Below, one piece after another: positions 18,079 through 52,123 of a stretch of DNA of 64,000 bases. The position numbers and the translations under genes were made by a program. The first letter of the stretch is position 1. Every line of letters starts with the position of its first letter. Under the pieces are notes generated by a model that was not told the DNA's origin, did not search any database, and saw nothing but the letters and a program-made list of their open reading frames with translations. Source of the DNA: Botryococcus braunii (taxonomy: Eukaryota; Chlorophyta; Trebouxiophyceae); contig MVGU01001159.1 of assembly GCA_002005505.1 (NCBI GenBank), forward strand, positions 1-64,000, given 5' to 3'.

Positions 18079-18170
18079 CTGCAACATTCACATACCCATA
18101 TTAGTCTCTGATCATCAAAACGGCACTTATGGCCGTGATCAAAAACATGACCGGCAGAGCCCCGACTTAC
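18079..18170 (-). other. 92-nt GT-AG intron in E LTR (intron 1)
   Basis: The minus strand begins GTAAGTCGGGG and ends GAATGTTGCAG. Removing it joins the flanking segments exactly as in the intronless copy (TACGTG to AATTGTTC). The counterpart in the other LTR is 24123-24214. Confidence 0.85.
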
Positions 18171-18621: not shown

Positions 18622-18690
18622 CACACACGCACGCACGCACGCACGTGCGCACGCACGCACGCACGTGCGCACGCACGCACGCACGCACGT
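18622..18690. repeat. (ACGC)n microsatellite in E 3' LTR
   Basis: ACGC units interspersed with GTGC. The length differs from the other LTR (about 24664-24717), a rapidly changing site between otherwise near-identical LTRs. Confidence 0.9.
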
Positions 18691-18728
18691 TAATTAACAT
18701 GACATAATGAAGTACAAAACCCAACAAT

Positions 18729-18739
18729 CTTCCCCTTGC
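18729..18739 (-). other. Polypurine tract of E
   Basis: The minus strand reads GCAAGGGGAAG, two bases from the 3' LTR; same core as the other copia elements. Confidence 0.8.
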
Positions 18740-18751
18740 TTCACATGTCAG

Positions 18752-21700: not shown

Positions 21701-23143
21701 TGACGTCTCAATGCCTTTCACCATATCTTCGGTTTGCAAGCGTTCCATGTTTTTACTGCTAGGGTGTCCTAGTCTTGCATGCCATAAGTCGTACTCTGAA
21801 CACTTGTGTGCAATGCCAGCAACATGGGGCAACTTTACTGACTGACATATCACTGAGCAGAAGTATAGTCCTCTTTCTTTTGTCACTTCTACTTGAAACG
21901 ATGACTTCTGACAGCAAACATGTGTGACTTCTCCTAGTGGATTTGTTGAAAAATTTAAACCATCAACAACTCCAGCAGACACTGACATTAAATTTTCCAA
22001 TGCAGTTGGAACAAATTCAACATCTCTCAATATGCATGTATTTCCCTGCTGATCCACCAAGCACACAGACCCACATGCCTTACGCTGCGCCACGTGTTCG
22101 CCAGTGGCTAGATTTAAACCCTTTGGAATTGGATACCAGTGAACATTATGCATCAGACGTACATCATTACACACATGTGTGGAGGCCCCAGAATCTATTA
22201 CCCACTGTGAGGACAATTCACCTGAGTCAGAGGAGTATGTAGTTGCCATTCCTCCTACAGGATTTTGAGGTCGCCCTCTGCCAGCCAGGATTGCAGCCCT
22301 TCTGGCGCAATCATCTTTGTACTTCTGACAATTCAGCCTGATGTGACCCTCCTCTAAGCAGAACCAGCACCCATGAAAGTTGGTAGGCACGTCATGGGGC
22401 ATGCCCCTGGGTCTATTGCCATCAAACCCAGGTGCATTATTTGGTCTTGGGGGACCAGAGGGAACAAGATTTGCAGAAGCAGAGGGAGCTTTCTCCTGAT
22501 CAATGCCCAGAAACTTGGCACATGCACTGATACGAGATACAACCTCATCCTCCTCTTTCCCCACACATGAATCATACAAATGGGACTGACTGTGGGTAAA
22601 GGCCTTGGGAAGACAGCTAACTATACCCATGGCAAGGCGCTCCTCATCAACAGGGTGTTTGTTAGCCCTCAAACCTCTAGCCAGCTTGTACTTCATGGCC
22701 ACAAATGCCATGTAAGTCTGGGCATCCTCAATTTTACCGGAGTCAAGCAGAAAGGCCCATTTTGACATGAGCTTCTGGTTATTTCCGCCTGTGAACTTGC
22801 CTTTCAGCCAGTCATACGCCTCCTTGGCTGAAGGCTTGTCCAGAGCTGCATCAACCCACTCATCTGGAATTTTTTCAGTAACTAGGCTCTTAGCCAAAGC
22901 ATCACCTGGTGTGTCAGGATGTTCCTCGTCCAAACACACCTTGATTTTCTTGCTACTAGCAACATTCTCTACATCCTTCATCCATCTGAAACCATTTATG
23001 CATAACACATCAAGTGATTGGGCCAACTTCTGTGTGTTATAAACTGGGTTTAGTGGGTCTCCTGTGCTGCCTGATACAACAGCTGCAGTAACACCTGTAC
23101 CAGTTGCTCCACCAGGAGCAGATGCACCAGCTGACCCACTCAT
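18752..23143 (-). CDS. gag-pol: Element E Gag-Pol polyprotein, intact (1463 aa)
   Basis: ATG 23143 to TAA 18752. Gag has a UBN2-like capsid segment (IPDEWVDAALDKPSAKEAYD, LMSKWAFLLDSGKIEDAQTY) and a CCHC knuckle (CWFCLEEGHIRLNC, about 260). Protease has WVIDSGASTHVCND. Integrase has HARLGHPS...CEVCVLGKQ, the core MDIVGELPVPG, VRTDRGTEF and APYTPQQNGRAER. After an acidic linker, RT has MKWVYAIKTDGFGD, QVDIKTAFLNGSLEEEVY, and TYVDDLLIVCK. RNase H has YVDADFAGDLDGRKSTTGF, STVEAEFVATAA and FCDNQGAIQHLKN. All catalytic motifs are in place and there are no stops, so recent activity is plausible. Confidence 0.96.
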   Translation of the reverse strand: MSGSAGASAPGGATGTGVTAAVVSGSTGDPLNPVYNTQKLAQSLDVLCINGFRWMKDVENVASSKKIKVCLDEEHPDTPGDALAKSLVTEKIPDEWVDAALDKPSAKEAYDWLKGKFTGGNNQKLMSKWAFLLDSGKIEDAQTYMAFVAMKYKLARGLRANKHPVDEERLAMGIVSCLPKAFTHSQSHLYDSCVGKEEDEVVSRISACAKFLGIDQEKAPSASANLVPSGPPRPNNAPGFDGNRPRGMPHDVPTNFHGCWFCLEEGHIRLNCQKYKDDCARRAAILAGRGRPQNPVGGMATTYSSDSGELSSQWVIDSGASTHVCNDVRLMHNVHWYPIPKGLNLATGEHVAQRKACGSVCLVDQQGNTCILRDVEFVPTALENLMSVSAGVVDGLNFSTNPLGEVTHVCCQKSSFQVEVTKERGLYFCSVICQSVKLPHVAGIAHKCSEYDLWHARLGHPSSKNMERLQTEDMVKGIETSLSPCNHGHSHCEVCVLGKQTRESYPRSPATATERLEIVHMDIVGELPVPGAEGERYMLTMLDDFSKAGVARALVLKSQVGDAVRAILLYLENQTGHTVKVVRTDRGTEFVNSDLREFVQSKGIRHETSAPYTPQQNGRAERFNRSLKEKVRMLLLQAKAPQSLWIEALPTAVRLLNLRAIKGKTATPYELLFGRKPAVHYLRVFGCLAYIKTPDKDLSAFSPRSEAGMFVGYEPASKAYRVLVGDKIKVSKNVKFFEDKLGIHTLSTDTQLPPDFPRDVNCDQVPSSADEEDWDFVPVDIVEAVDLNREAGRGEDQILPANLEVLQRLNEVLRQQAQAEESGNRDTHGPGVSGEESMGPGDEQEQPGDGENDPGGDSDQDRSSQESDSGDEAQDRVRGGMSRYGLRETLAQPDKYIPGSYFVKDDAIAGATRVTSFNQNGAKEEVLSSRNVKIPNDWFEARNSPQWVYWKEAMNEEMDSIESHETFEYCHKPSHAKVIPMKWVYAIKTDGFGDVIRFKARLVAQGCKQRPGVDYFETFAPVSTHSSRRVLLNLANAKGWKVHQVDIKTAFLNGSLEEEVYVTQPPCFSNGDSSRVCKLLKSLYGLKQAPRAWHKRLVEELSKFGFTACKSDSSLFVNKESYESHVYLLTYVDDLLIVCKEGETIEQVKSKLTCSFSIHDLGEIKSFLGCEITKGETTGSLKMTNVLKIERLVEEYGLSAQGRDVDTPMAHGFVTSQNPEPPLGAGGEQVGAGTPLPEGHRYLELVGSLQYLATTTRPDIAQAVGVLSRFRGQPTTAHWNGAIRVLRYLNCTKEMGITYTNSGDNELVGYVDADFAGDLDGRKSTTGFVLLLNGSAVSWCSKKQSSVSTSTVEAEFVATAAAVKEVMWMGGMLEELGVTVKTVKLFCDNQGAIQHLKNHIVSKFTKHISISYHYAREKVAWGQIDPVYVATSENVADMFTKPLASAAFEKHRAKLGVSGPAFN

Positions 23144-23328
23144 GAAGGCAATCTGTGATCAAATTCAGCAGCTAATGACTTAAGGATCTCAATTACAATT
23201 AACAAGCGATACAGCGATGTATTCAAGGGACGTTCAATGCCAGAGTTTGACAGCTCTTCAACTTCTTTATGCAGTGAACCAACCCAATACCTGTGCTGTA
23301 CAAAATTCAATTCCTAGGACTTTCAAGC

Positions 23329-23604
23329 TTAGTCAACCAACGGCTCCCTAAACGGTCGATAGGGATACTTTACTTCACTTCCAATGCGTACGTTTGTTTG
23401 TGTTTCTTTCCAGGCAAGTCCAATGTCACAATATCGTTCAAATAGATAACATGCACGATCGATGGCCGATGCAACTTGCACTAACGGGACTTTCCCAACA
23501 AAATACTTTTCGCACGCGTCACAGCAGAAGCATCCTCTGCGGAGATGTTCAACGTCAAAGGGGGTGGCGTTCGCTCGCTGCGCCTCTAAGCGTCGAGACC
23601 CCAT
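23329..23604 (-). CDS. Short ORF (91 aa) between primer site and gag of E
   Basis: Starts with ATG directly after the primer-binding region (MGSRRLEAQRANATPF) and ends at 23329, 186 nt before the gag ATG. It has four Cys in CFCCDAC and nearby. It occupies the place of ORF0 in A, B and D, but I see no convincing similarity to it. It may be a leader ORF or chance. Confidence 0.35.
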   Translation of the reverse strand: MGSRRLEAQRANATPFDVEHLRRGCFCCDACEKYFVGKVPLVQVASAIDRACYLFERYCDIGLAWKETQTNVRIGSEVKYPYRPFREPLVD

Positions 23605-23624
23605 GGATGTGGGCCCAGTACCAT
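23605..23624 (-). other. Primer-binding site region of E
   Basis: The minus strand reads ATGGTACTGGGCCCACATCC after the 5' LTR. GGTACTGGGCCCAC resembles the half-tRNA site GGTTATGGGCCCAC of A, B, C and D with two changed bases. It may still use initiator tRNA-Met or a different tRNA fragment. Confidence 0.55.
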
Positions 23625-24754
23625 TGTGATTTGCAAAGATCCAAAGGTGTTATATTAATCATAAATGATGACTATACTCACAAGTATATCATCCATGTAC
23701 TTAATCAGTTTGACCAAGACATACATAGTCGACAGCGTCAAACTGATGAACAATTCACGTATAGCAATTGCTTCCACAGAAGTTACTCACAACAAGTGAG
23801 AGAGAAAGAAAGCAATTCACTTGAGTCCATTCAGGAGTCGGCTTAACAAGCCAAAGAGATCGAATGACTTACAAACTACTGTCGGACGAACACACACAGT
23901 AACTAGTCTTACCTGCAAAGATCCAAAGGTGTTATATTAATCATAAATGATGACTATACTCACAAGTATATCATCCTGTGAACACACTAACACCTTTAGT
24001 TCATTGCATATGATGAACCTTATCTATAAGCAGCCCTCAGCCGTAACATAGCTGACTTACCATGTACTTAATCAGTTTGACCAAGACATACATAGTCGAC
24101 AGCGTCAAACTGATGAACAATTCTGCAACATTCACATACCCATATTAGTCTCTGATCATCAAAACGGCACTTATGGCCGTGATCAAAAACATGACCGGCA
24201 GAGCCCCGACTTACCACGTATAGCAATTGCTTCCACAGAAGTTACTCACAACAAGTGAGAGAGAAAGAAAGCAATTCACATGAGTCCATTCAGGAGTCGG
24301 CTTAACAAGCCAAAGAGATCGAATGACTGCCTGGTGGTCCGGGTTCTCTGGCTATCTGTACTCAGATCAGCGCGTGGGAAACGCGCTGTCCAGCACTGCT
24401 ACTGGCCTTTTTCACGAACATTAGGACATGCTCAGGGTTCCTATCCACAGAATTTGGACCCTTATCCTACAGTAACACATTTATTAACTCTAGATGCATG
24501 TCTTCCAGCCACTAAAGGCTGGAAGGTATTTACAGCCATAGAATAAATATCTCTCAATGCATTAATACTCATAGATTGATCGTTCATAGCCATTGTCAAG
24601 ATGTCTTTACCTTGAGTTAACTGCTTGGTTAACTTACAGCTAATTATTACATGTGATTGTACCTTCACACACGCACGCACGTGCGCACGCACGCACGCAC
24701 GTGCGCACGCACGCACGTTAATGAACATGACATAATGAAGTACAAAACCCAACA
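23625..24754 (-). repeat. Element E 5' LTR (1130 bp)
   Basis: Same layout as the left copy, shifted by 6044 in its first part. The (ACGC)n tract (about 24664-24717) is shorter than in the left LTR. Confidence 0.93.
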
Positions 24755-24908
24755 CAAGTGTCCCATTTCCCAAGTCCAAGTGAACATAAAAATCTAATCC
24801 AAAAACATACAACACAAAAGAATAATTAAAGTGCTTAAGTCCAAAAAGTAGGGAACTTCCATGGAGAAGTTCCATGCTCCCAATGAGTCCCGTTCCCGTA
24901 ATGGATGA

Positions 24909-25599
24909 TGAAATATTCTGGGCTTGGCGTATCCTGCATGGTGGCGGCACGGAGGGTGTTAGACGATGTCCTCCTACTTGTGCGTTGTTAAGTAGGCACG
25001 GACATATACAAGTCAAGGACTGGTTAGCAACTGATTGATAGACACCCGGAGTGCCACTATAGTTCCAACCAAGTGTTACAATATCTCTCATCTCTCCTAA
25101 CAAGGTGACGCAGTTCAAACACGCCTAACCTGCTCTCACCCAGGTCGTGTTCATTACTTTGTCCGATGAGCTAAACTCAACTCTATATGTCTAACATGTT
25201 CTAACAATGTTCATCTGAGTGCTAAATCCAGGAATACAATAAGGATTAAGTCACCTGCATGGTGGCGGCACGGAGGGTGTTAGACGATGTCCTCCTACTT
25301 GTGCGTTGTTAAGTAGGCACGGACATATACAAGTCAAGGACTGGTTAGCAACTGATTGATAGACACCCGGAGTGCCACTATAGTTCCAACCAAGTGCCTT
25401 CCCTATCCGTGCTTGCCCCATATGCCTCCTTTCTACAAACGTGTCTGTAACTTGCGTTATGATAGTCTTCGTTCAAATGCATGTATTGCCTGGCAGAACT
25501 CAGGGTTCTGCCTCTCTTTCCTAATTGGTATTGTCTTCATACGGAGACTTGCCATTATTACTCCTCTGAGGGAAAGGCATAAAATTAATTAACACAACA
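24909..25599 (-). repeat. Element B 3' LTR (691 bp)
   Basis: Starts TGAAATATTCTGGGC and ends AACACAACA. It holds two copies of its module (about 24938-25075 and 25255-25397), TGTAA (minus) at 25076-25080 and a palindrome at 25492-25512. Confidence 0.93.
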
Positions 25600-25611
25600 C
25601 TTCCCCTTGCC
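25600..25611 (-). other. Polypurine tract of B
   Basis: The minus strand reads GGCAAGGGGAAG directly before the 3' LTR. Confidence 0.85.
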
Positions 25612-25617
25612 TTTACC

Positions 25618-28600
25618 TCACAGAAACTTGGCCAGTCCCAGTGAGTTACGATGTCCCAGAAACACTTGTCTAACTAGTGGTTTGGTAAAAATGTCAGCCA
25701 CATTTCTAGCAGATTGAATGTACTTGAATTCAACCTGCCCCTTTGCAATAGCTTCACGTGCGAAATGACAGCTAATTGCAATATGCTTTGTGTGTTTGGA
25801 GTACACCGGATTCCTCAGGTGGTTTATACACCCTTGGTTGTCACAATGAATCTTCACTATCCACGGTAACACTCCAATTTCCTCCAGGAAACCTCTCAGC
25901 CAATTTGCTTCCTTCACAACAGCACTTGCTGCCATGAATTCAGCCTCCACTGTTGAAGTGGCAACAGCAGATTGCTTTTTACTTCCCCACACTACTGCTC
26001 CTCCAAACACAGTGAGGACAAAGCCAGTGGTAGAGAAGCGATGATCCTGATCACCTCCATAGTCGGCATCCACATAGCCTTCTAGCTCTATCTCCCCCCC
26101 TCCGAGAGTTAGAACCAAATCTCGGGTTCCTTTCAGATACTTCAACACACGGATGGCTTCATTCCAATGTGCTGTGGTGGGAGATATGCGATAACGAGAC
26201 AATACACCTACTGCCTGAGCTATATCGGGACGTGTGGTGTTGGCTATATACAGAAGAGACCCTACTAACTCACAGTAACGGTGACCTGGAGGTAGTGGAC
26301 TGCCAGCACCAATGCTGTCGCTCCCATCTCTCGGTGCAGGCCTTTGGGACATTACGAAATCTTTTGTCATGGGAGTATCAGGTCCCACTGACTCAAGATC
26401 CAAGCCAAATTTCTCTACAAGTGCATCGATTTTAGGGATGCAACTCAGGGTGATCAGCCCTTTATCTCTATCTCTCATCACTTGACATCCCAAGAAATCC
26501 TTCACTTCCCCAAGATCATGGATGGTGAATTCTTTCTTGAGAAGTCCCTTCACTCTCTCGATTTCTGACATGCCCTTGGAAACTATCAGAAGATCATCAA
26601 CATAGATCAGCACATAGGACTTTCCTCCATCAGTAGAGCATCTCACATACACTCCCGCATCACTCTTGCACACCTCATACCCCATGACTTCAAGTTTGTC
26701 ATTCAGGGTTTTGTGCCAGGCACGTGGAGCCTGCTTCAGGCCATACAACGCCTTTCTCAATCGGCACACAATATTCTTATCACCATTCTCAAAGCCAGGA
26801 GGTTGCGTTACATATACTTCCTCCTCGAGCTCACCATTCAGAAAGGCGGTCTTAACGTCCACCTGATGAATTTCACAGCCCTCTCTTGCAGCAACAGCAA
26901 GCAGAGCTCTTCTAGCTCCATAGCTACTAGTAGGAGCAAAGACCTCCATCACATCCACTCCAGGGATTTGTCTGCATCCCTGTGCCACTAATCTGGCCTT
27001 GAATCTCACAACATTGCCATGTGCATCCATTTTCACTGAAAATATCCAGTGAACTGGAATAACCTTATGTCCACGAGGTCTCGGAACATACTCCATGACC
27101 TCATGAGTATCTAGAGAATTTTGCTCTTCCTGCATAGCTGCCTTCCAGTATTCCCACTGGGGAGACATCTGTGCTTCTCTCAAATTAGAGGGAACGTGAA
27201 TTTTCCCAAATCTGACACCTGTGTGCTTTTCCTCTGAATTGCCTGATTTTCTCTCACTTTGTCCAGAACCCACTACTCTTCCACTGACACTCGCTGAGTT
27301 ACACATCACAGGCTCTCCAGTAGAAGTAGAATGCTCTCTCATAGCACGCTCTCGCTTGGACTCACACTTGGCTTTGCACAAGTTACTCTGCTCATCCCTC
27401 ACATCATCCTCCCATGCACAGGTACCTCTCGGACAGTCTTTGTAATTTGGAATCCCTTCACATTGTCCAGACTTCCGATTCACCTCCTCAGACACACTCT
27501 GACATGCCTGCAAGAGTTCAGACTCTTCAGGTCTCTCACAAGCAACATCGGGATATGGCAGAGTGTCTGCATACTTCCCCTGATTTATGTGATCCACATG
27601 CCTCTCAGACCGACTGCATGTCACTGTTGGGAGTGACCTCACATCTCTGACATCACTCTCCCAGGCACAGGTACCTCTCAGTGAGCACTTGTAATTTGGT
27701 CTGTCTCCACAATGTCTGTGCTCCTGATTCACCTCCTCCTCTCGTCCCTTACATGGAGTCAAGGATGCAGATCCTGTCTCCCGCTCACAATCATGTTTGG
27801 CTGGTGCAGAGAAAGCATATGATGCTTCCTCTGACCGGTGGCTGCCACCACAGTCCCGTCCAGGAGTGCTCTGACTGGACGGGTTGCCAGAAGAACTCTG
27901 CATGGTCACATCTCTTACATTTCTCTCAGTCACTGAACAAGACCCACCCATACTGCTCAGCTCCCCGGGACCATTTGCAGCTTTGCATGTAGCTGCCCCC
28001 CTCACTGCACTCACATGCAATTCATGCCCCTCATGTGAATCACCCTCTAGCTGCACTTCCCCTGGTCCCTGTGACAGAGAGTCACATTCAGTCAACCCCT
28101 CTCGCTCTCTGCTCTCTCCCTTCTCCTGTGGCAGCAGGAGGTCTTTGGCGGCAGTGCGTTGTTCGTGTCGTTGAGCCCGGGTCAGGCCATCCAATTGGTG
28201 GTTGCGGCAATCAGACCTAGTTGGTCTGAGGACCTCCTGGGCTCGCTCCATCTGCGGTCGAAGGTGGGAGTCCTGTCTCACTCCTCTGGCTAAGTCCTGT
28301 ACTGCCTCCAGGGTTTGATCCATCTCCACTGGGTCACACAGTCTTCTGGATTCAGGCTCGGGCTCAGCCTCACTGGGGGGTCCTGTGACAGGCTGTGTGG
28401 GGAGGTTGCTGGAGGCTGGCAGGTACTCAGGCTCACTGTGTGGGTCATCAAGATCTGTCTCAAGGCTGATGTTGGTTGTGCCAGGGGAGGTGCCGGGAAA
28501 GACTGGGGGAGTGTCACTTGCAGAGGGCTCAGGACACAGAAACTCTGTAGACTGTGTTGAGGAAACGCTCATGCCAACCCGAGAGGCTCCCCTGAGGTGC

Positions 28601-28621
28601 TCCACGAAAACCACATCTCTG
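25618..28621 (-). CDS. pol: Element B linker, reverse transcriptase, RNase H (downstream of C)
   Basis: Resumes after C with DVVFVEHLRGASRVG. A roughly 450-residue linker rich in Ser, Glu and Cys follows. It carries the motif PNYK-x5-GTCAWE-x-DV twice (about 27410-27455 and 27655-27705); A and D have it once. RT has VHWIFSVKMDAHG, DVKTAFLNGELEEEVY and LIYVDDLLIVSK. RNase H has YVDADYGGDQDHRF, STVEAEFMAAS and HCDNQGCINHL. It ends at TGA 25618. Confidence 0.94.
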
Positions 28622-29321
28622 TGTTGAGTTGTAAACATACATTATAGAATGCCTTGTGCTTTAGGTGATCTTCAAATTTACATTATTAGGATACGGGTCC
28701 ACTATCCACATAAGGTACCTCAAGACACGTTCGGATGAGGTCTATTTCAAACATAAGGTACAATCTGATTTAGATTACGCGTTAGTGTGAAAGGACTATT
28801 AAAGCTGCGATCACCGCATAGTCGAGCAACTGGTTTGGAAAGATACTGGGCACATAAGGATGCCAGTCTTGTTCATGCAGTTGCATGTGTCTAAAGAGCA
28901 CACAGTCGTCAAGGACGGTAGCTGGAGTGGCACGAACTTACGACCTGTCTGCTTGCTTACAGGTGCGGTGACGCAGGGTGTGTATTGGTAATGTGTTCAT
29001 GTTTGATTGATTGTTTGTAAGTGAACCATCTTAGTGGACAATCAAGTCTCCCAAACAGCTAAGGGACGGAGTCTTGATTGAGTATAGGAAGGTACTTGCT
29101 TTCAGCCGTCAGGAGCTTATCCGTGTGTAGATGCTCATTGACAGATCAACATGTAACGGAACTGGTTTGGAAAGATACTGGGCACATAAGGATGCCAGTC
29201 TTGTTCATGCAGTTGCATGTGTCTAAAGAGCACACAGTCGTCAAGGACGGTAGCTGGAGTGGCACGAACTTACGACCTGTCTGCTTGCTTACAGGTGATG
29301 CCGAATGCCCATAACCTAACA
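28622..29321 (+). repeat. Element C 5' LTR (700 bp)
   Basis: Contains a roughly 135-bp module twice (about 28829-28965 and 29160-29296: ACTGGTTTGGAAAGATACTG...GCTTGCTTACAGGTG), with TGTAA at 29152-29156 just before the second copy. Confidence 0.93.
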
Positions 29322-29336
29322 GGTTATGGGCCCACC
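29322..29336 (+). other. Primer-binding site of C (half-tRNA type)
   Basis: GGTTATGGGCCCACC directly follows the 5' LTR on the plus strand, which fixes the orientation. Confidence 0.87.
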
Positions 29337-30108
29337 CAACTCTGGGTGCTGAGGACAAGCCGATATGTGGTTTTTGGGCAAGGCACTGGTGGCCAGCGGA
29401 CACTACACAAGTCTACTCCAGTCCCAAAGGGAGCGACAGCCCCGCAGTTTGTACCCCGCCTTCATGTCGCAGTATATGCTTCAGAATCCATTCGAATTGA
29501 TTCTGAAATGCCAAGAAATCTTGGCAGTTTCATCCGCAAGGCGAGGTGGTGAAATCCCGGTTGGAAGGGCACGAGGCGGAAGACCACCTTGGGATGGAGG
29601 AGTGAAATTTTGAGTGCATATGGGAGGTTGTGTATGATTTGGGATCTGAAATTGTGAGTGTGTGGCTCAATGAGTTGAGAGAGGAAGTGATGCTCCTGTG
29701 TTACAGTAAGTGTACTGGTTGAGAGGTGAACCAATAGAAAGGCTTCTTTTTAAGTCTGCACCCTCTTAAGGCTGGAGATCAAGGGGGTCAGATTAACAAA
29801 AGTAGTTATGAATGACCTCTAACCACTGACAGCAAGTGTGATACTCAGCGGGAAGAAGTGGGTGGACCCTAGGGAGCCCCCATCCAGGTATTGGTAGACA
29901 CCATGAGCAACAGTACAGGTACTGCAGCATGGGGATGGGCTTACATATGTGTTGTATGTGTAAGCGTGTGTAAAGATGTCCATGAGCTGGGGCTTGAAAG
30001 ACATTGATTGTGTATGTGTAAACAGCCAGGAGTTGGTGCAATATGGTGGTAAGGGACTTTTGGTTCCCCAGTCCACTGAGCACATTCTTATTGTGGTTTG
30101 CGCTGCTA

Positions 30109-30280
30109 CTCGCTGATGGCTAGTCCCTAATGTTAAGGGTGAGAAAGGCTGATCGGGTGTCGCGTTCGGACTCGCTGATGGCTAGTCCCTAATGTTGAGG
30201 GTGAGAAAGGCTGATCAGGTGTCGCGTTCGGACTCGCTGATGGCTAGTCCCTAATGTTGAGGGTGAGAAATGCTAAATCG
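30109..30280 (+). repeat. 62-bp tandem repeat, about 2.8 copies
   Basis: Units start CTCGCTGATGGCTAGTCCCT at 30109, 30171 and 30233; the third is partial. Confidence 0.85.
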
Positions 30281-30612
30281 GGAGTCGTGTGCCTCATTGA
30301 ACTGTCGTGCACTTGCGGAGTCAAGACCTCTTATCGGAACTGCTGTGTAATCAATGTCATGACTTGTCTTATGTGCCTGGCATTCCTTCCATGTTTTCCA
30401 GAGTGTGAAACTAGACATTGACTGGTTGTGTCTGGTCAATGATGTGTAGTCAATGCGATGTGTGGCTGATGTTGTGTGGCCAACGCGGTTTTCAAACCTT
30501 GAGTGGTCTTACATAGGGTCATATATGGGTCCAGTGTGGCTTGTGAGACCTCTCTATGTGTGTCTGTGTATGTGGTGTTGTGAAAATCCCTAAGGTATGC
30601 TGAGGTTTTTTT

Positions 30613-31060
30613 GACTTGGTGTTGAAAGTTTTTGGGTTGACCAGGAGTGAGTTGTGGGTACCAGAAGATTACAATTTTATCGTTGCGCAATGCATGCGCT
30701 TCACACCCTGACCTACAGTCTGGCATGGACCATAGAGTAATTGACCCAGAATGTTTAAGGGGATATACATTAATGACCTGGTGTTGAAAGTTTTTGGGCT
30801 GACCAAGAGTGAGTTGTGGGTACCACAAGATTACAATTGTATCGTTGCGCAATGCATGCGCTTCACGCCCTGACCTACAGTCTGGCATGGACCATAGGGT
30901 AATTGACCTAGAATGTTTAAGGTGATATACATGAATGACCTGATGTTGAAAGGTTTTGGGCTGACCAGGAGTGAGTTGTGGGTACCAGAAGATTACAATT
31001 TTATCGTTGCAATGCATGGTAGTTGACCCAGAATGTTTAAGGTGATATACATGAATGACT
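30613..31060 (+). repeat. 162-bp tandem repeat, about 2.8 copies
   Basis: Units start GACTTGGTGTTGAAAGT at about 30613, 30775 and 30937. The third unit lacks an internal part. Because 162 is a multiple of three, the minus strand stays open across the units. Confidence 0.85.
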
Positions 31061-32369
31061 CTAGGAATGCAAAGAGGGGTAGAAATAGCTGCAAGTTAGT
31101 CTTAATCCATGGTGCGGGCTACACAAAGGATATGAGTGTTAGATGGGCCAAATTATGAACACCAAAAATTGCTAACATGTAAAGCTAATTCTGATATTGA
31201 CATGAAAAAAGAATTGGTTTCTGAGGACAATGAATTAATTTGAAGAGTTTTGGGTTAATCTGTGACATAATGTGGTCAGGGGAAGCTCATCAGTTATCGT
31301 TGCGCGCGTGCGCGCGTTGCGTTTTTCGCGCAGTTGGATGTTGAGTAGCCTAATGTCTAGTAGTGATGATGAAGAGGATTTATTGTGCTCAACATGAGGT
31401 TACTGATAGGTACCTGTGATGACCCTAGCTCCTCAAGCAGAGGATGGTGATATTTGACCCAACACACGTAAGCGTTGGTGACTTTGTAAGTCATGTGTAT
31501 TGTTGCAGCAACGCCCTTAGAGACTGATCATACTACTGATGGTGTAAAGATAAGACTTTTTTAAGGGTTATGTGTATAAATAGGGTAGAAGTGAGCTACC
31601 ATCATTGTGACCAATACAAGTGAGCTTTGGGAGGTAGAATTGTCAGTTACAGACAATTTAATCCTAAGGCCTTGATGCATCGGTGCACCCTCACGTTAGA
31701 AAGCTAGACCGGGATAGCCAGTAAAATCAATGAAAGCTAGAGAGAGTTCTTACAGATAGCCACAGAGCCAAGTTTGGGAGTTGTGGCCATATGTGAGAAT
31801 TCTTGAAAAATTCCAGATGAAAGTCGTTGATATCCAGACTCTAGGTTATATAACATGAAACATAGTTGTTAGATGCGTTTTTGAGTGCAGGTCGTTTGTA
31901 ACGGTGTCTGTTTAGTCTTGATGCTTCAAATACTTAACCAAATAAAAGTATAGAGGTTGGAGAAATATAATTTGATCGACGGACCGTGAAACGTGTAATA
32001 GCACTTCCAGGGGAAGCAATGTGAGTTAGGGCAAGACAACTTGAAAGTACTCAAGCAGTAAGTCCTGGGTCATGTTGGTTGTGCAAGTATTGGCCTCCAT
32101 ATGGTGATAGAAAGGGAACTCACACAGGAAATCACGGTCGCAACTAGTTTCGATGTCGCGCCGCGGACTAAAGGGTCAGTTGAAATGTATGGGGGGCTTT
32201 GAAAGTGAGGGGATGGATTTTGAGTTTACATGTATGTTTAGCTGTCATGATCATCATGACGGGTACGTATTAAATTCATGTCGTCATTTGAACACGTCGA
32301 GGAGACTAGTCTTCAATTGTTGTCAGAGGTATTACTGCGGTATACATGAGTGGTGTCTGTGGACTTAGA

Positions 32370-32830
32370 ATAGCGTTGCAAAAAGTTGGAAAGGGTGTGT
32401 GTGAGGATGGTCGTGGAGTTGATACTCCAATGTTCAAGGACTTTGTGGCTAGCAGCAGGCTCGAGTCCAAGGATGTGGAGTCAGTAGGGTCAGGCACTCC
32501 TGGCCATCGGTATTGTGAGCTTAAAGGGTCACTCCGGTACATTGCCAACACCACCAGATCTGAAATTGCATAGGCAGTTGGTGTGTTGCCAAGGTACAGA
32601 ATGAGCCCTACCACTTCGCACTGGAGTGAAGCCATTCGAGTGCTGAAGTATCTTAGGGACACCCAAGAGTTAGCTTTAACTCTTGGAGGGAAGGTACCCG
32701 AGCGTGAAGGCTTTGTGGATGCCACTAAGCTAGGGAGGCCATAGGAGAGGGACTGGCAGATATCCCCTATGTGGAATCTGCTCACAATGTGGCTGAGTTT
32801 ATGACCAAACAACTTAACAAGTCCGTGGTG
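32370..32830 (+). pseudogene. Decayed copia RT/RNase H remnant in C
   Basis: Conceptual residues VDTPMFKDFVAS, GHRYCELKGSLRYIANTTR, an in-frame stop, AVGVLPRY, HWSEAIRVLKYL and EGFVDAT are recognisable. A deletion of most of RNase H follows, then GLADIPYVESAHNVAEFMTK. These match the C-terminal third of copia Pol in A, B and D and show that C descends from an autonomous relative. Confidence 0.85.
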
Positions 32831-32879
32831 TTAGTCATAGGGATTCACTAGGACTGAGAAGATACACATAAAGCATGCA

Positions 32880-32891
32880 GGCAAGGGGAAG
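32880..32891 (+). other. Polypurine tract of C
   Basis: GGCAAGGGGAAG directly before the 3' LTR. Confidence 0.87.
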
Positions 32892-33591
32892 TGTTGAGTT
32901 GTAAACATACATTATAGAATGCCTTGTGCTTTAGGTGATCTTCAAATTTACATTATTAGGATACGGGTCCACTATCCACATAAGGTACCTCAAGACACGT
33001 TCGGATGAGGTCTATTTCAAACATAAGGTACAATCTGATTTAGATTACGCGTTAGTGTGAAAGGACTATTAAAGCTGCGATCACCGCATAGTCGAGCAAC
33101 TGGTTTGGAAAGATACTGGGCACATAAGGATGCCAGTCTTGTTCATGCAGTTGCATGTGTCTAAAGAGCACACAGTCGTCAAGGACGGTAGCTGGAGTGG
33201 CACGAACTTACGACCTGTCTGCTTGCTTACAGGTGCGGTGACGCAGGGTGTGTATTGGTAATGTGTTCATGTTTGATTGATTGTTTGTAAGTGAACCATC
33301 TTAGTGGACAATCAAGTCTCCCAAACAGCTAAGGGACGGAGTCTTGATTGAGTATAGGAAGGTACTTGCTTTCAGCCGTCAGGAGCTTATCCGTGTGTAG
33401 ATGCTCATTGACAGATCAACATGTAACGGAACTGGTTTGGAAAGATACTGGGCACATAAGGATGCCAGTCTTGTTCATGCAGTTGCATGTGTCTAAAGAG
33501 CACACAGTCGTCAAGGACGGTAGCTGGAGTGGCACGAACTTACGACCTGTCTGCTTGCTTACAGGTGATGCCGAATGCCCATAACCTAACA
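32892..33591 (+). repeat. Element C 3' LTR (700 bp)
   Basis: Same as 28622-29321, with no difference seen. Confidence 0.93.
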
Positions 33592-35995
33592 CTCTGCTCT
33601 CCTTCCAGATACCCCCTCCCACATAGATCCGATAGGCTTTGGAGGAGGCTGAGTAACCAGTAAGCATCCCTGGCACAGTTTTAGGGGAAAACACAGAGCG
33701 CTGGACATCAGGAATGTGCACAAAGGCCAAGCAACCCCAGGTACGCAGTGGGGTTACATTTGGTTTGTAGCCAAAAAATAATTCTGATGGCGTGCGGTCC
33801 CTCCCGGTACTGGGACCCATGTTCAGTAGGGTGCATGCAGTTTCCAGGGCCTCCTTCCACAACGTTGGACTGGCAGCTGCAAAAGCCAGAAGAGTCCTGG
33901 TACGTTCCTTGAGGGTGCGATTGGCTCTTTCAGCCGCTCCATTCTGTTGCGGGGTGTAAGGAGCTGAGGTCTCCAATTTAGTCCCCTGGGATGCACAAAA
34001 TTCTTTGAACGTGGCATTCAGAAATTCAGTTCCACGGTCACACCGGACACACTTCACTTTGGTTTTCTTCTGGGTCTGCCAGTATAGAATGAGGTCCCTC
34101 ACAGCAGCACTGATGGCATCTTTGGACTTCACAGGCAGGACCGCCTTTAACTGAGATGACTCATCCAAAGCAGTCACCCAGTAACGTTCACCAGTTACTG
34201 CAGCAGGAAAAATGGGGCCCACAGTGTCAATATGTACTCTGTCAAGTGGTTCAACAGCTGGTCTACTGCTTATTCCAAATGGAGGCCGAGACGTCTTTCC
34301 CTCAATACATGCTTCACAGTAGACTGGACAATTGGAGCAGGGACATAGGGATGTATCAAGTCCCGAGACCAGGTCCTCATTGGTTAGGCGCTGCATCCAT
34401 GTTTCACCTGGATGTCCCATTCTGCTATGCCAGAGGTATCGTCTGGCACAGTTGTGTGAGTTTTGGGTGGGGGTTTTGGACTTCACAGCAGCTGAAATTC
34501 TTCTGTGGTTAACACTGGGACTCAGAGCTACAACTTGATGAATATAAAATAGCCCTTTCTCTGCACTGATCCGAGACCTCCAGCTGTTTGGACCACAGAC
34601 TTCAGTGAACGCTCCAACATCATCTGTGCGAAAGACTGCCCCATCCCGCAATGCTGCAGATACTGACAGTATGTTTGAGGTTGCAGAAGGAACACACTGA
34701 ACATGATGTATCCACAGGGGAACTCCCACTCGACTGAGGATGCAGACAGAGCCTGATGCTACAATTCCTCCAGTGGCATCTGAAGTGGCCAGATGTAATG
34801 GGATGGGTTTGGCATGCACAGTTGGATTATGTAGTAGGGTCACATCATTCACCAGATGTACAGATGCTCCACTGTCAACCAGCCAGGATTGCAGAGACGA
34901 ATTTCTGACAGGAGTCTTCAGGATGTTGAGGGAAATTATGTATGGCATACCTCCAGGTGGTGGAGGTGGGGGAGCTGGGGGTTGGAACCATGCCGGAAAG
35001 GCATCCAGTCCAGGGTGCGCCAGCTGGGCTGCAGGAGGGTGTGGGCCACCCATATGTGGAGGTCCCTGTGGCCACATTCCCTGCAATTGTTGGACCGCTG
35101 CCACTACGTTCCGTTGGGTCTCCTCGTCCCGCTTCCTCTTTCGACAGTCCCTCCAGTAATGCCCCTTCTTATTGCAGTAGTTGCAGATGCCCTTAGTCTC
35201 GGACTTGGCCTCAGAGACAGTTGGTTGGGCCTGCTGATGGACTGCACTGGCAGCTGGTGGGGTATTGGCTCCACTGGAGCCTTGTCCAAGAGCCAAAACC
35301 CTTGGTTGGCGAGGAGCATATTCATCAAAACCCACTGCAGCTGCTGTGTTGCGCAGAAGTCCAGCCAGCTTCTCCAGGGGTTGTGCTGCAGCAGTTGTGA
35401 TCATTCCTGGCTCTTTAGCTGCATCAGGCAAGCCCTGCACAATCTGGGTTGCAACGTGTGCATCCAGTAGAGCATGGTTGTTCCTGTCAAGGCATGCCTT
35501 CAGGTTGATCATTCTGTTGACATATTGCGAAATCGTCTCGTCATGTTTCATTCCCTGGCTCATTTCTTGGAGCCAATCTGCATTGGCCTCGATATTATAT
35601 CCACCAATAAACTTTCTGCAGATGAACTCATATGCATCATAAGCAGAGGGCAGATTAGACAGAGGTCCCAGCCATTCCTCTGGGACTGACTCATAAATCA
35701 GTAACATTGCGGCTGCGTCATGTGCTGTACCAGGCATAGCCTCCAGGATGGCAGGCAAAGACCCTTTTGACTCATTTGCTGCCAAAAATGCATTCTTCCA
35801 AACAATAATATTTGTCCCCCGTTCCTTCAGTTTTATGTGTACCTTGACATTTGTTGGGATAATCTTGGGCAGCTCATCTCCGCTGCCTCTTGAGGTGCTG
35901 GGAGTACACGGTTCTCTGATGGGTGTGGATGAGGCTGGTTCACTGCTTGACGTTGATGCTCCACTAGCTGATGATCCTTTCTTCTTGGAAGTCAT
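33592..35995 (-). CDS. gag-pol: Element B Gag, protease, integrase (upstream of C insertion)
   Basis: ATG 35995 (MTSKKKGSSASG). Gag has the capsid-like region (VPEEWLGPLSNLPSAYDAY, FICRKFIGGYN) and CCHC knuckle CNYCNKKGHYWRDC. Protease has LVDSGASVHLVND. Integrase has HSRMGHPG, CEACIEGK, HIDTVGPIFPAAVTGERYW, RCDRGTEF and APYTPQQNGAAERANR. It is interrupted at 33592 within GGGIWKESR by element C. Beyond this point the frame reads by chance into the C LTR. The same frame resumes at 28621. Confidence 0.94.
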
Positions 35996-36021
35996 AATTC
36001 CCCAGTTGTCTTATAACTCCA

Positions 36022-36264
36022 TTACTCGCAAGGTAGCAGCAAGATCTTACTTCTGAACCAGGTGGGTTGAGCTAACGGACAGCCAACGTGAAGGTGAAAG
36101 ATGTAGTCTTTGACGATAAAGGCTCTCTCGTCAGGATTGCGGTCTCCACGTTGTCCTCCTTCTCTGATTAGTTCGTTGTATGACGGAGGTCCTGATCTCA
36201 AGCGCGCTGGAACGTTGAGGTTGGTGGTCTTCCTGGCTGTTTGCTTTGTCCGCTTCTTCGCCAT
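36022..36264 (-). CDS. ORF0 of B: shortened 80-aa protein with exact H3-tail octamer
   Basis: ATG 36264 to TAA 36022, 26 nt before the gag ATG. The N-terminus is MAKKRTKQTARKTTNLNVPA. RTKQTARK is identical to histone H3 residues 2-9, including the Lys-4 and Lys-9 positions. It continues with the core shared with A and D (PPSYNELIREGGQRGDRNPD, ERAFIVKDY), then stops early where A and D go on for about 95 more residues. The downstream half is missing at DNA level. Whether the short form is functional is unknown. The tail match in a copy with identical LTRs argues that the tail is a maintained part of the protein. Confidence 0.78.
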   Translation of the reverse strand: MAKKRTKQTARKTTNLNVPARLRSGPPSYNELIREGGQRGDRNPDERAFIVKDYIFHLHVGCPLAQPTWFRSKILLLPCE

Positions 36265-36318
36265 TCACAGTCTAGTGAGCTCCGATTTAGGCGCCACCCA
36301 CTCTCAGCATCCGAGCCC

Positions 36319-36332
36319 GTGGGCCCATAACC
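36319..36332 (-). other. Primer-binding site of B (half-tRNA type)
   Basis: The minus strand reads GGTTATGGGCCCAC next to the 5' LTR, complementary to the initiator tRNA-Met anticodon arm. Confidence 0.85.
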
Positions 36333-37023
36333 TGAAATATTCTGGGCTTGGCGTATCCTGCATGGTGGCGGCACGGAGGGTGTTAGACGATGTCCTCCTA
36401 CTTGTGCGTTGTTAAGTAGGCACGGACATATACAAGTCAAGGACTGGTTAGCAACTGATTGATAGACACCCGGAGTGCCACTATAGTTCCAACCAAGTGT
36501 TACAATATCTCTCATCTCTCCTAACAAGGTGACGCAGTTCAAACACGCCTAACCTGCTCTCACCCAGGTCGTGTTCATTACTTTGTCCGATGAGCTAAAC
36601 TCAACTCTATATGTCTAACATGTTCTAACAATGTTCATCTGAGTGCTAAATCCAGGAATACAATAAGGATTAAGTCACCTGCATGGTGGCGGCACGGAGG
36701 GTGTTAGACGATGTCCTCCTACTTGTGCGTTGTTAAGTAGGCACGGACATATACAAGTCAAGGACTGGTTAGCAACTGATTGATAGACACCCGGAGTGCC
36801 ACTATAGTTCCAACCAAGTGCCTTCCCTATCCGTGCTTGCCCCATATGCCTCCTTTCTACAAACGTGTCTGTAACTTGCGTTATGATAGTCTTCGTTCAA
36901 ATGCATGTATTGCCTGGCAGAACTCAGGGTTCTGCCTCTCTTTCCTAATTGGTATTGTCTTCATACGGAGACTTGCCATTATTACTCCTCTGAGGGAAAG
37001 GCATAAAATTAATTAACACAACA
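36333..37023 (-). repeat. Element B 5' LTR (691 bp)
   Basis: No difference from the left LTR seen by eye. Palindrome at 36916-36936. Confidence 0.93.
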
Positions 37024-37028
37024 GATGA

Positions 37029-37632: not shown

Positions 37633-39549
37633 TCAAACGGCCGTCTCGCCCCACTTGGGCGGGCCCAACTCCTGGTGACGGTGGTAGGCGTTGATGGTGT
37701 CCTTCGCGTGGTCGAACATGTCCAAGGGCTCCCAATCGTCTCCGACGTCATAACCTGACCACACTACCCAGTATTGGTAGGCTGGGGTACCGTCCGGGAA
37801 GTGGAGGGCCCGGTTCCCCTTCATCAAGGGACGGTGACTGAGGATGCCGTCCACGACGTACTCGGCATTCTCCGTGCCGTCATCGCCCTTGACCATGCGT
37901 GGTCCCGGCTGGTATTTGTAAATGCTGAGGCGGTCTGGGTTACGTGGCCCCTTGTAGAGGTCCACATATTCCACGTTTATGCGTGGGTGAAACTTCAGGG
38001 CGGCGGGGACGTCCAGCTCAACAGAGTTGGGATGGACGGCAGTGACCCGGAAGGGTCCAATCCGGCGCCTGGCAAGCTTTATGTACTTCTGCGACGTCAG
38101 GGCGGCTGGGAACTTCGTCCGAAGGAGAACAAGGTCCCCCTCCTTATAGATCACAGCCCGGCGGTGGCGGTTCGCCTGGGCCGCCTGCCGCTCCTGAGCT
38201 GCAGCCAAAAACTTCCGTGCAAGAGTAAGGGAGTCTTGCATCTTCCGGAGGAAAAGATCTGCCCGATCTGCTTTTCCCCCCTCCATGTGTCCCATAGCAA
38301 ATGGAATGTTTGGATCCTGTCCATATGTCAAGCGGAACGGTGTGGTGTTGATCGAGGCTTGCCATGTATTGTTATAGGCAAACTCTGCAACAGCCAGATG
38401 GTTTTCCCATTCGTTAGGCTTATCCCAAACATAATGTTTGAGGTAGTCCTCAAGAATCCTGTTAACCCGTTCCGTTTGTCCGTCAGATTGTGGATGATAG
38501 GCTGTAGACCGTGCGGGTTTGCAGCCTGTTAAATTTAGGAGTATATCCATAGATTTACTCACAAACTTAGGATCCCTATCCGACACAAGTTCCTCTGGAA
38601 ATCCGTGGTATCTCCAGACTTTATCCCTTAGCAAAACTGCTACATCATATGAGTCAGCTTTTGTGGTGGTGGGCACAAAGTGAGCACACTTACTTAACCG
38701 GTCCACCACAACCCATATGGCATCATTCTCGTTTGCACTCCGTGGCAACCCCGTTATGAAATCCATGGAAATGCTTTGCCATTTCCTAGTCTGGATTTGC
38801 AAGGGGTGAAGGAGGCCTGCGGGCAACTTGTTTGAAGCTTTGACCCTTTGACAAGAATCACAGTAGGCAACATATTCCCGCACGTCCTCTGTCATTCCCG
38901 GCCACCACCATTCCCGTTTCACCAGTTCATACATCTTGGCAAAACCAGGGTGTCCCACATACAAAGGTTCATGCAATGCCTTGAGTATATCTTGTCTTAG
39001 GTTTCTCCCCACGACTCCTTCCCCATCCTTCACCTCATAATGCCCTGGGACATACTTCCGTCCCTCCTTCCCATATTCCCACATCCCATTCCTGAAATGC
39101 ACCTTCCTTATGTTCGACCTCTTTCCCAACCACTCATCATCCATGTAAGCCCTCTTTACTAACTCCAGGAAGGGTTCACACGTGTCAAGCTGCTGGGTGA
39201 CTCCGCTCGGGCGGGCCCTCCCGCCGGAGTCCATTGCGACCCGGGGCTTGACACTCCTGAGCTCGGGCTCCGCTGGCTCGACGTTGCGTCGGAGCTGCCT
39301 GGCCGCGAGGATTGGGACCCTGGACAAGGCATCTGCGACATTAGTCTTGCCTGGCTCCCAAACCCAGAGTATGTCAAACTCCTGCAATCGCTCACCCCAC
39401 CTAGCTCTTCTCGGGCTTAGTCCTGCCTGTTGTTGCAAAAAGGTATTACACTTATGGTCAGTGGTTACGGTGACTGGTTTTCCTAACACATAACATCTCC
39501 ATTCCCGTAGAGCATACACTACAGCCAGCAATTCCCTTTCCGTAGCGGA
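37633..39549 (-). CDS. pol: Element F RNase H end, integrase and chromodomain
   Basis: In frame after the TAA; the start codon given by family alignment is upstream. RNase H has ELLAVVYALREWRCYV and TVTTDHKCNTFL. Integrase has an HHCC finger (HEPLYVGHPGF...CDSCQRVKAS) and the core (MDFITGLPRS, VSDRDPKFV, TAYHPQSDGQTERVNRILED). The C-terminal domain contains RRIGPFRVTAVHPNSVELD. A chromodomain-like end follows (YVVDGILSHRPL...YQYWVVWSGYDVGDDWEPLD, DTINAYHRHQ). It ends at TGA 37633. Confidence 0.92.
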   Translation of the reverse strand, partial: SATERELLAVVYALREWRCYVLGKPVTVTTDHKCNTFLQQQAGLSPRRARWGERLQEFDILWVWEPGKTNVADALSRVPILAARQLRRNVEPAEPELRSVKPRVAMDSGGRARPSGVTQQLDTCEPFLELVKRAYMDDEWLGKRSNIRKVHFRNGMWEYGKEGRKYVPGHYEVKDGEGVVGRNLRQDILKALHEPLYVGHPGFAKMYELVKREWWWPGMTEDVREYVAYCDSCQRVKASNKLPAGLLHPLQIQTRKWQSISMDFITGLPRSANENDAIWVVVDRLSKCAHFVPTTTKADSYDVAVLLRDKVWRYHGFPEELVSDRDPKFVSKSMDILLNLTGCKPARSTAYHPQSDGQTERVNRILEDYLKHYVWDKPNEWENHLAVAEFAYNNTWQASINTTPFRLTYGQDPNIPFAMGHMEGGKADRADLFLRKMQDSLTLARKFLAAAQERQAAQANRHRRAVIYKEGDLVLLRTKFPAALTSQKYIKLARRRIGPFRVTAVHPNSVELDVPAALKFHPRINVEYVDLYKGPRNPDRLSIYKYQPGPRMVKGDDGTENAEYVVDGILSHRPLMKGNRALHFPDGTPAYQYWVVWSGYDVGDDWEPLDMFDHAKDTINAYHRHQELGPPKWGETAV

Positions 39550-50801: not shown

Positions 50802-51326
50802 TCAGTCGTCGTTGCGTTCTGAAAGTTTCGAGTCTCCGTCCTCGTCCTCGCTGCCTGGTTCCGAGCACCACTCTTCCGGACTGTATCCTTTTATGCATCC
50901 CAAGAGAGAAATAAGGAAGTCCTCGTCGAACGAAGCGAGAGCCGTCTCCACAGCTGTGTACGCTGCCTTTTCTGCCCAGAACTCTTCCTGGTCCGGACCT
51001 CCGACCTGCCGCAGGTGTCGTTCAAACAGTGCTCGGGTTACAAATCCTGGGTCTCCGTTGATGAAGGAACACTCCCAGGCTGTGACTTTGTAAGCAGGGT
51101 AGACTGGAAATCTCCGTTTGAACCACCGTGGAGGGTCTAGTCTGCCCTGTCCGTATTTTCGGCTGACAACGTCCTTGATGATGAATGCTCGTTCCTCAGG
51201 TGTTCTTGGTCCTGTCTCTCCACCAGCTCTTCTCAAGCTGTCATATGTCGGTGGTGGAGGTGGAGGAAGCCTCATAGGTCTCGCAGAGCCCGTAGACATT
51301 CTCCCGCTCTGTCTCGTTCGTCCCAT
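50802..51326 (-). CDS. ORF0 of D: 174-aa protein with H3-like N-terminus
   Basis: ATG at 51326, TGA at 50802; the stop lies 16 nt before the gag ATG (50785), in a different frame. The N-terminus is MGRTRQSGRMSTGSARP. It keeps R, T, Q, R and STG of the H3 tail, with the Lys-4 position changed to Arg. Downstream are a polyproline run, the shared core (TYDSLRRAGGETGPRTPEER; VYPAYKVTAWECSFIN; FVTRALFERHL) and an acidic end (EDEDGDS). Length equals the A copy exactly, and most of the core is conserved at protein level, which suggests selection in the lineage. No known enzymatic motif is visible. A GTG- or upstream-started longer frame reaches into the LTR, but the ATG shared with A is the better start. 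Confidence 0.8.
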   Translation of the reverse strand: MGRTRQSGRMSTGSARPMRLPPPPPPTYDSLRRAGGETGPRTPEERAFIIKDVVSRKYGQGRLDPPRWFKRRFPVYPAYKVTAWECSFINGDPGFVTRALFERHLRQVGGPDQEEFWAEKAAYTAVETALASFDEDFLISLLGCIKGYSPEEWCSEPGSEDEDGDSKLSERNDD

Positions 51327-51392: not shown

Positions 51393-52123
51393 TGAACAAT
51401 TCTGAGCGTGGCGTTTCCTGTATGACCCGGGCACGAAGGGTGATTAGCTCGTCGGCACTCTTGTTGTGTGTAGGAGAACAAGCAGTGACCGAATGTGAAT
51501 GAGGACTTGATAGGCAACAGACAAGAAATAAGCACCCGAAGTGCCTTTAATGTCCCAATCAAGTGATTACAATGCTACTTGCTTTCTCTCATCACTCCGT
51601 AATTCAAACTACTTAATCTACGTAACTACCGATAGTCTGCATTACCAGTGTTCAATGAGGAAAACATTAGCACCAACTTAATAACATTACCTAGACCTCT
51701 TCCTAACCAATTGTCAATGAGGCTTCTGTCACTCAACGTCAGGTTACCTGTATGACCCGGGCACGAAGGGTGATTAGCTCGTCGGCGCTCTTGTTGTGTG
51801 TAGGAGAACAAGCAGTGACCGAATGTGAATGAGGACTTGATAGGCAACAGACAAGAGATAAGCACCCGAAGTGCCTTTAATGTCCCAATCAAGAGCCTCG
51901 TCCTTGCACACCGGCGTCATAAATCCTTTCTAGCAAACCGTGTCCAATTACCTCATTCTCCCTAATCTATGCGAAATTGGTCTAGATTGATTCTGGCAGA
52001 ATACCTAGGTTCTGCCACCTATTACTCATTCTAATGAATGTTCCCGCTGGTTAATCCGAGCTGATCTGGCCGCTATTACTCTTCTGAGGGAAAGGCACCA
52101 AATGTTCTTTCACTATTATAACA
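51393..52123 (-). repeat. Element D 5' LTR
   Basis: Same ends and internal modules as the left copy. Visible differences include CGTCGGCGC versus CATCGGCAC in the second module and AAGAGCC versus AAGTGCC after it. Confidence 0.93.

Follow-up and report, generated by a model that had tools for sequence, protein, structure and literature searches.

Copia retrotransposons of the green alga Botryococcus braunii encode an additional protein with a histone H3-like N-terminal tail, a putative mimic of the H3K9 methylation site

The elements and their additional ORF

The stretch analysed here, the window, is 64,000 nucleotides of a Botryococcus braunii contig (MVGU01001159.1). It contains Copia (Ty1/copia) LTR retrotransposons, three of which, termed A, B and C, have an additional ORF, ORF0, ahead of gag (Table 1). 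Element B extends as a whole from 24909 to 37023, and the translation of its ORF0, which is of 80 codons on the minus strand, has the N-terminus MAKKRTKQTARKTT; the 80 amino acids open MAKKRTKQTARKTTNLNV and the ORF as read is MAKKRTKQTARKTTNLNVPARLRSGPPSYNEL. A preliminary description of this DNA had located the ORF exactly, between the LTR with its primer site and gag, and its equation of RTKQTARK with H3 residues 2–9 agrees with the host's own H3, whose N-terminus, MARTKQTARKSTGGKAP, is present in three host genes. It had also put the motif at the extreme N-terminus as in H3, which is not so. R2 is displaced by two preceding lysines (M-A-K-K-R-T-K), and H3 is thus copied in the order of the motif but not in its spacing from the N-terminus.

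That the element hosting ORF0 is a Copia LTR retrotransposon is evident from element B, in which gag_pre-integrs, Pol_BBD and SH3_retrovirus are above their Pfam cut-offs (rve is below its own) and are followed by RVT_2, and in which the paired 691-bp LTRs have the 5-bp target-site duplication GATGA on both sides. The domain order of element A is the same, with RVT_2 downstream of the integrase. By its LTR coordinates, element B is inserted inside element C. The primer-site-like sequence of B, GGTTATGGGCCCACGGGCTC, is taken by us to resemble the anticodon arm of initiator tRNA-Met. The gag ATG of A, at 6646, is 11 nts past the ORF0 stop and that of C, at 50785, is 16 nts past it. The ORF0s of A and C are homologous to that of B and have H3-like N-termini, and such a protein is not confined to element B even within the window.

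A fourth Copia element, at 17580–24330, has a single long gag-pol frame (18752–23143), and comparison by eye of the two minus-strand frames, of 91 and 35 aa, that lie ahead of its gag on the LTR side revealed no ORF0-like protein. It is a natural control for the neighbouring lineage that has ORF0. The LTRs of A, B and C have an internal direct duplication of ~143–153 bp at a spacing of 321–330 bp. A nested insertion (~28640–33415), with direct repeats at 28621–28920 and 32891–33190, interrupts the pol of element B.

Table 1. Positions in the window of the ORF0-bearing Copia elements and their features
Feature	Positions	Strand	Remark
ORF0 of Copia element B (K lineage), MAKKRTKQTARKTT, shortened	36022–36264	-	ORF listing, genomic copies
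RTKQTARK	36229–36252	-	identical to host H3 residues 2–9
PPSY (PPxY-type) motif after the tail, element B	36178–36189	-	kept in most homologues seen
gag-protease-integrase ORF, element B	33416–35995	-	ATG 26 nt past ORF0 stop; nested insertion cuts the ORF
Reverse-transcriptase part of pol, element B	25618–28641	-	RVT_2, E 1.3e-66
5′ LTR, element B	36333–37023	-	691 bp, 100% identical to 3′ LTR
3′ LTR, element B	24909–25599	-	pair of 5′ LTR
Target-site duplication GATGA, element B	24904–24908	.	partner 37024–37028
Primer-site-like GGTTATGGGCCCACGGGCTC, element B	36313–36332	-	adjoins LTR
ORF0 of Copia element A (M lineage), 174 aa, MGRTKQSGRMLTGSKRP	6658–7182	-	homologue of B ORF0
H3-like tail of A against H3 1–16	7132–7179	-	9/16 identical, M at position 9
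5′ LTR, element A	7240–7969	-	partner 648–1375, 99.6% identical
ORF0 of Copia element C (M lineage), 174 aa, MGRTRQSGRMSTGSARP	50802–51326	-	homologue of B ORF0
H3-like tail of C against H3 1–16	51276–51323	-	8/16 identical, M at position 9
5′ LTR, element C	51393–52123	-	partner 9018–9748, 99.0% identical

Real length and architecture of the protein

The 80 residues of element B ORF0 are 100% identical in all 150 scored places of the genome (753 candidates). The family of element B is recent and very successful, and identity of this degree makes its copies uninformative on selection. The previously given length of 80 aa is right for the window copy but is that of a shortened form, the open frame being 90 codons in 139 of the 150 scored copies. 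Among 30 fetched B loci, 19 read 90 codons, 9 (the window copy included) read 80, one 81 and one 99; in 19 of the 30 the stop of the 90-codon ORF0 overlaps the gag ATG. An undeleted relative, P0008, is of ~166 aa.

AlphaFold2 modelling of 17 sequences with P0008 as first row (80.2; a 7-sequence model was poor, 58.5) gave a confident all-helical core, blocks of residues 31–130 being at pLDDT 89–97 (pTM 0.74), tail blocks at pLDDT 50–54 and a low-confidence acidic end. What is predicted is a disordered or flexible tail on a folded core. In most members a PPxY motif follows the tail, with VPTY or VPSY in P0009/P0010 and PPTF in P0017. Neither ORF0 of B nor the M-type proteins (below) gave a significant sequence match in Pfam or PDB, to a histone or to any other known domain, and by eye the helix pattern of the model is unlike the histone fold. 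The numerous B family has an ORF0 that retains the tail, PPxY and the stretch following it and is without the helical core, which may be dispensable or provided in trans. N-myristoylation was considered as a reason for the M-G start of tails and rejected, since most tails have Gln at the position that its consensus needs and M-A opens 18 of the 43 distinct tails.

Two lineages that differ at position 9

Nearly all data on the ORF0 family come from one genome (176 Mb). A tree of the core, with the tail omitted, has a supported K clade of full-length B relatives and a supported M clade with A and C; the shortened ORF of element B was not among its rows, and copy L138 was scored K though its position 9 is N. 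The M-type tally is of 62 distinct places chosen by core similarity, each counted once (L049 is element C, and L089 is L059). Six pattern-chosen loci, element B, the unrelated L096 and the cut copy L099, whose visible part keeps S-G-R-M, were excluded from it. R2 is present in 61 of the 62, T3 in 54, Q5 in 48, S or T at position 6 in 61, G7 in 60, R8 in 61, T or S at position 11 in 57 and G12 in 60; position 4 is R in 55. Position 9 is M in 61 and I in the remaining copy. The K9 to M replacement in this sister lineage had no part in the preliminary reading. The M lineage thus has the combination expected of a K-to-M inhibitor, Met or Ile in place of the lysine and retention of the flanking Arg; the K lineage, to which the window ORF of element B belongs, does not have it.

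A genome-wide pattern search gave 239 matches for a tail ending R-M and 5 for one ending R-K, with none in either reversed-pattern control; as the pattern presets some residues, it is the M-to-K comparison alone that is informative. The five R-K matches are made up of four host H3 genes and an unrelated frame. A match in contig C310 (L096) was rejected as an ORF0 tail, its frame being unrelated.

Forty stretches were fetched for the K clade, of which 38 were readable (L137 and L156 were dropped). KQTARKTT is exact in 27 of the 38 and KQTA in 32, with at least two synonymous codons each at Q, T, A, R and K. In three copies (L135, L136 and L147) the tail is frameshifted and the core open; in L138 position 9 is N. 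The residues ahead of K4 vary between R and K, and the N-terminus lies two or three residues farther off than in H3.

Likeness to H3, chance and selection

When the 166 ORFs of the window that start with ATG and have 60 aa or more were ranked against H3 1–18, the three ORF0s took the first three places, with BLOSUM62 scores of 49, 45 and 43 and the next ORF at 29. Five M-type tails were compared with H3 1–16 by composition-preserving shuffling, 200,000 shuffles per tail. The best of them, L091 MGRTKQSGRMSTGGKRP and L106 MARTRQTGRMSTGGNRP, have 11 of 16 residues identical to H3, and for each no shuffle matched the score or the identity. For the tail of element A none matched by score and 2 by identity, for that of element C 5 and 18, and for the weakest of the five 26 and 305.

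In the K lineage the codons for H3 4–11 have a pN/pS of 0.070 at a pS of 0.70, against 0.267 for the core (17 copies and 119 pairs, after L135, L136 and L137 were dropped from 20 rows); this is the sixth lowest of 113 windows. In the M lineage (40 copies, 404 pairs) the stretch for H3 2–9 has 0.153 against 0.273 for the core, with 11 of 97 core windows lower, and that for H3 1–12 has 0.276 against 0.273, with 60 of 93 core windows lower. The M-clade ratios indicate that the tail as a whole is constrained like the core, and its 2–9 stretch more than most of the core. In both lineages the tail has been kept at the protein level although synonymous sites approach saturation. H3-like tails are selectively maintained in two lineages, and ORF0 has the features of a histone mimic in being a short H3-tail-like stretch that exceeds chance and is kept by selection. 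Two outcomes that had been named in advance as fatal to the mimic idea were not encountered: the N-termini of homologues bearing the core are as a rule not random, and the match did not arise in a single copy, KQTARK being kept in the K lineage through heavy synonymous change. The R2 codon is always CGA among 11 family representatives of the M lineage (11 of 16 named rows, 45 pairs), and there may be a nucleotide constraint so near the start codon.

Distant relatives and the history of position 9

A protein search with the shortened B ORF0 alone gave no candidate. An alignment search then found distant relatives, some from metagenome sources beyond the host genome; Botrbrau1 gene models are 8 of its 17 relatives, and all 5 in another relative search. 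Viral contigs searched with P0009 gave none. Some of the distant relatives have an H3K9-like site (RQTARRS, RQTARRN, RQTARKST and KKTARMSTGG). The tail of P0013 is MTHHRQTARRSPRGG, of P0014 MARRRQTARRNPRVG and of P0017 MVRPKKTARMSTGGGPP. Against mimicry count P0018, which is without a clear motif, P0016, GRKRQTARKSTSSKR, with QTARKST only from residue 20, and those with a blurred motif, P0009 and P0010 (RSRTQTAQRRT) and the similar P0015. P0007 is a fragment without the tail. The region of H3 5–11 seems to be old in the ORF0 family, judging by the related tails of the distant metagenome relatives. Mapped on the tree, position 9 has to have changed four times among K, R and M, or five times if the single I is counted; with P0016 and P0017, long branches of unsure placement, omitted, two changes suffice. 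Position 9 is R in P0013 and P0014, which by the EZHIP rule (below) would suit neither a methylatable decoy nor a K-to-M inhibitor.

The H3 residues kept differ between lineages. They are K4, A7 and K9 in the K lineage, A7 and S10–G13 in P0017, Q5–T11 in P0016, and A1, R2, T3, S10–G13, K14 and P16 in some M-lineage members. That different lineages keep different H3 residues suggests capture of, or descent from, an H3 tail. It is possible, if tentative, that an algal Copia element captured the H3 N-terminus onto an unrelated helical protein and that residue 9 has since switched among K, R and M, yielding a selected weapon against H3K9 silencing, a mobile equivalent of H3K9M, in which K would make a substrate decoy and M a dominant inhibitor.

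ORF0 as a putative mimic of the H3K9 methylation site

In our judgement ORF0 is probably an anti-silencing mimic of the H3K9 methylation site, the M form being an inhibitor and the K form a decoy or bait. One study reports that G9a needs H3 6–11, with the arginine beside the lysine essential (PMC8541646). In another, changing K9 to M is reported to make the H3 tail inhibitory to H3K9 methyltransferases: H3K9M binds Clr4 and G9a with SAM, peptide residues 3–12 are visible in the G9a crystal, and H3K9 methylation is dominantly blocked in fission yeast (PMC5030085). For EZHIP, inhibition is reported with Met or Ile in place of the lysine and not with Lys or Arg (PMC6513997), and the Ile of the sole non-M copy among the 62 is an inhibiting residue by this rule. 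Since the kept residues overlap H3 6–11 and H3 3–12, and with EZHIP as precedent, M-lineage ORF0 is best read as an H3K9 methyltransferase inhibitor. The preliminary description had suggested that the protein either recruits H3-tail readers to guide integration or competes for methyltransferases; M9 in 61 of 62 copies points to competition for the writer and away from recruitment, and a role in guiding integration finds no support here. Its more general suggestion, a histone mimic acting on silencing, stands to the extent that the H3-like N-terminus is real and mimicry plausible, and is not supported for the H3K4 side on which it also drew. What stays kept is the K9 neighbourhood, not the K4 side, and the constraint centres on the footprint of the H3K9 writer, not on the free N-terminus needed by K4 readers.

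As the first long frame on genomic RNA, ORF0 would be produced early. The first protein made from that RNA would present an H3-like disordered tail followed by PPxY, a core made of helices and an acidic end. The M-lineage tail, R-T-x-Q-S/T-G-R-M, would occupy the active site of SET methyltransferases of the SUV39/G9a class, with its methionine in the lysine channel and the enzyme trapped SAM-dependently as with H3K9M. The KQTARKTT of the K lineage would act as an alternative substrate, in competition with H3 for the writer and, after its own methylation, for chromodomain readers. In either case host silencing of the element would be blunted. That ORF0 is translated, enters the nucleus, binds the enzyme and affects silencing is what we infer.

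Some findings go against a mimic. G9a prefers a hydrophobic residue at position 7 according to PMC8541646, and A7 is nonetheless G in the M lineage; the M tail over H3 1–12 is no more constrained than the core. Of the host enzymes, 11 SET exon matches were found. A search for Pre-SET gave no exon match in the host genome, with a control that was itself uninformative, and identified no host H3K9 methyltransferase. SRA exons in contig C126 have, by eye, a RING-like stretch downstream, and the gene looks like one of the UHRF1/VIM type.

The likeness of M-lineage ORF0, a putative inhibitor, to the oncohistone H3K9M lies in Met at position 9, the kept R8 and the flexible N-terminal tail. H3K9M, however (PMC5030085), is a mutated histone within a nucleosome, whereas ORF0 is retrotransposon-encoded, has no histone match and also has A7 changed to G. 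Like M-lineage ORF0, EZHIP/CXORF67 is a non-histone protein with a K-to-M mimic of a histone tail; it is a natural K27M-like PRC2 inhibitor that mimics H3K27 and acts on EZH2 (PMC6513997), and it is called eutherian-specific in PMC12842176. ORF0 mimics H3K9, is borne by an element and is algal, and homology between the two is not expected. VANC of the Arabidopsis VANDAL elements is, like the proposed ORF0, an anti-silencing protein encoded by an element, but it is described as sequence-specific (PMC5735166 and PMC10398659), while ORF0 has a histone-tail mimic and no known domain. Rice Retrosat2 also has an ORF0 of undefined role in an LTR retrotransposon. Its description (PMC3485330) sets it apart by LTRs of great length and by an ORF0 reported from no other organism.

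For the K lineage the nearest likeness is to sites in host enzymes. The QTARKTT of this lineage contains ARKT, the letters of the G9a/GLP automethylation site. It is of the same kind as that and other H3K9-like sites discussed in PMC8541646, though these are in host enzymes and their partners and ORF0 belongs to a mobile element.

Were the mimic reading right, a K-to-M inhibitor modelled on a histone tail would have arisen independently in algal retrotransposons and be a rare natural case of its kind for H3K9. Imitation of the substrate would be a new type of counter-defence beside the erasing of marks or the binding of an element's own DNA, the arms race between element and H3K9 methylation could be followed directly in a single codon, for K, R or M, and the tails would be natural, selection-tested peptides for probing SET enzymes. 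The literature searched, whose coverage leaves out most subscription journals, yielded neither an earlier account of a histone-tail mimic in a retrotransposon nor a publication on Copia elements of Botryococcus.

Alternative readings

The K-type tail, methylated at K9, could instead be bound by chromodomain or HP1-like readers and guide the preintegration complex to heterochromatin, the reverse of the chromodomain integrases of Gypsy chromoviruses. This is unlikely. The K lineage does retain the whole reader and writer site, KQTARKT, and element B does sit within another Copia element, but the M lineage, unmethylatable at position 9, is nevertheless widespread (239 matches), ORF0 is separate from the integrase, and the fission-yeast chromodomains tested in PMC5030085 are reported not to bind H3K9M.

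Also unlikely is a basic nuclear-localisation or RNA-binding stretch whose H3 likeness is a by-product of R/K/Q/T composition. The tails are indeed basic, the K-lineage residues ahead of K4 vary between R and K, and the weaker M tails are equalled in score by 5 to 26 of 200,000 shuffles. However, shuffles keeping composition never reach the H3 match of the best tails; the non-basic Q5, T/S6, A/G7, T11 and G12 are kept despite synonymous change, and a role for charge alone would not fix M at position 9.

An N-terminus acting on the H3K4 axis, that is on PHD fingers, LSD1-type demethylases or K4 methyltransferases, for which SNAG domains are the comparison, is very unlikely. The M lineage keeps R2 and T3, with A or G after the initiator Met. 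K4, though, is R in 55 of the 62 M-type copies, and in the K lineage the N-terminus with its free alanine is displaced by two or three residues while those ahead of K4 vary; it is this displacement together with the R at position 4 that makes the K4 axis the less likely, and with it the PHD-reader idea of the preliminary description.

It is highly improbable that the position-9 ATG is kept as a second start codon with the H3 likeness upstream of it incidental. Two of the 62 copies lost the first ATG and keep that at position 9, where gene model P0004 also begins, yet residues 1–8 are themselves kept at the protein level through synonymous change, and neither the K lineage nor the R types have an ATG at that position. 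A chance likeness in a decaying frame, which the shortened window copy and the existence of further stop-bearing copies might suggest, is hardly credible in view of the pN/pS of both lineages (taken as already refuting it), the shuffles, the ranking among 166 ORFs, the retention of KQTARKTT in the K lineage and the distant relatives from metagenome sources.

Other H3-related sequences

At window positions 37633–39234 there is the end of a Gypsy-type pol whose C-terminus, YWVVWSGYDVGDDWEPLDMF, looks like what we take to be a chromodomain; other elements in the window may thus make use of H3-tail readers. The host genome has a divergent H3-like gene, L034 (contig C224 of G000, ATG at 266850), with the tail MARTKQTARKSVGGNRP. 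GGNRP is common to this tail and that of ORF0 copy L106, MARTRQTGRMSTGGNRP; L034 may have been its donor, or the sharing may be mere coincidence. A further host gene, L045 (contig C256 of G000), is a split H3-fold gene with RKYQRTTNLLIRKLPFARLV, and from its resemblance is perhaps the centromeric H3.
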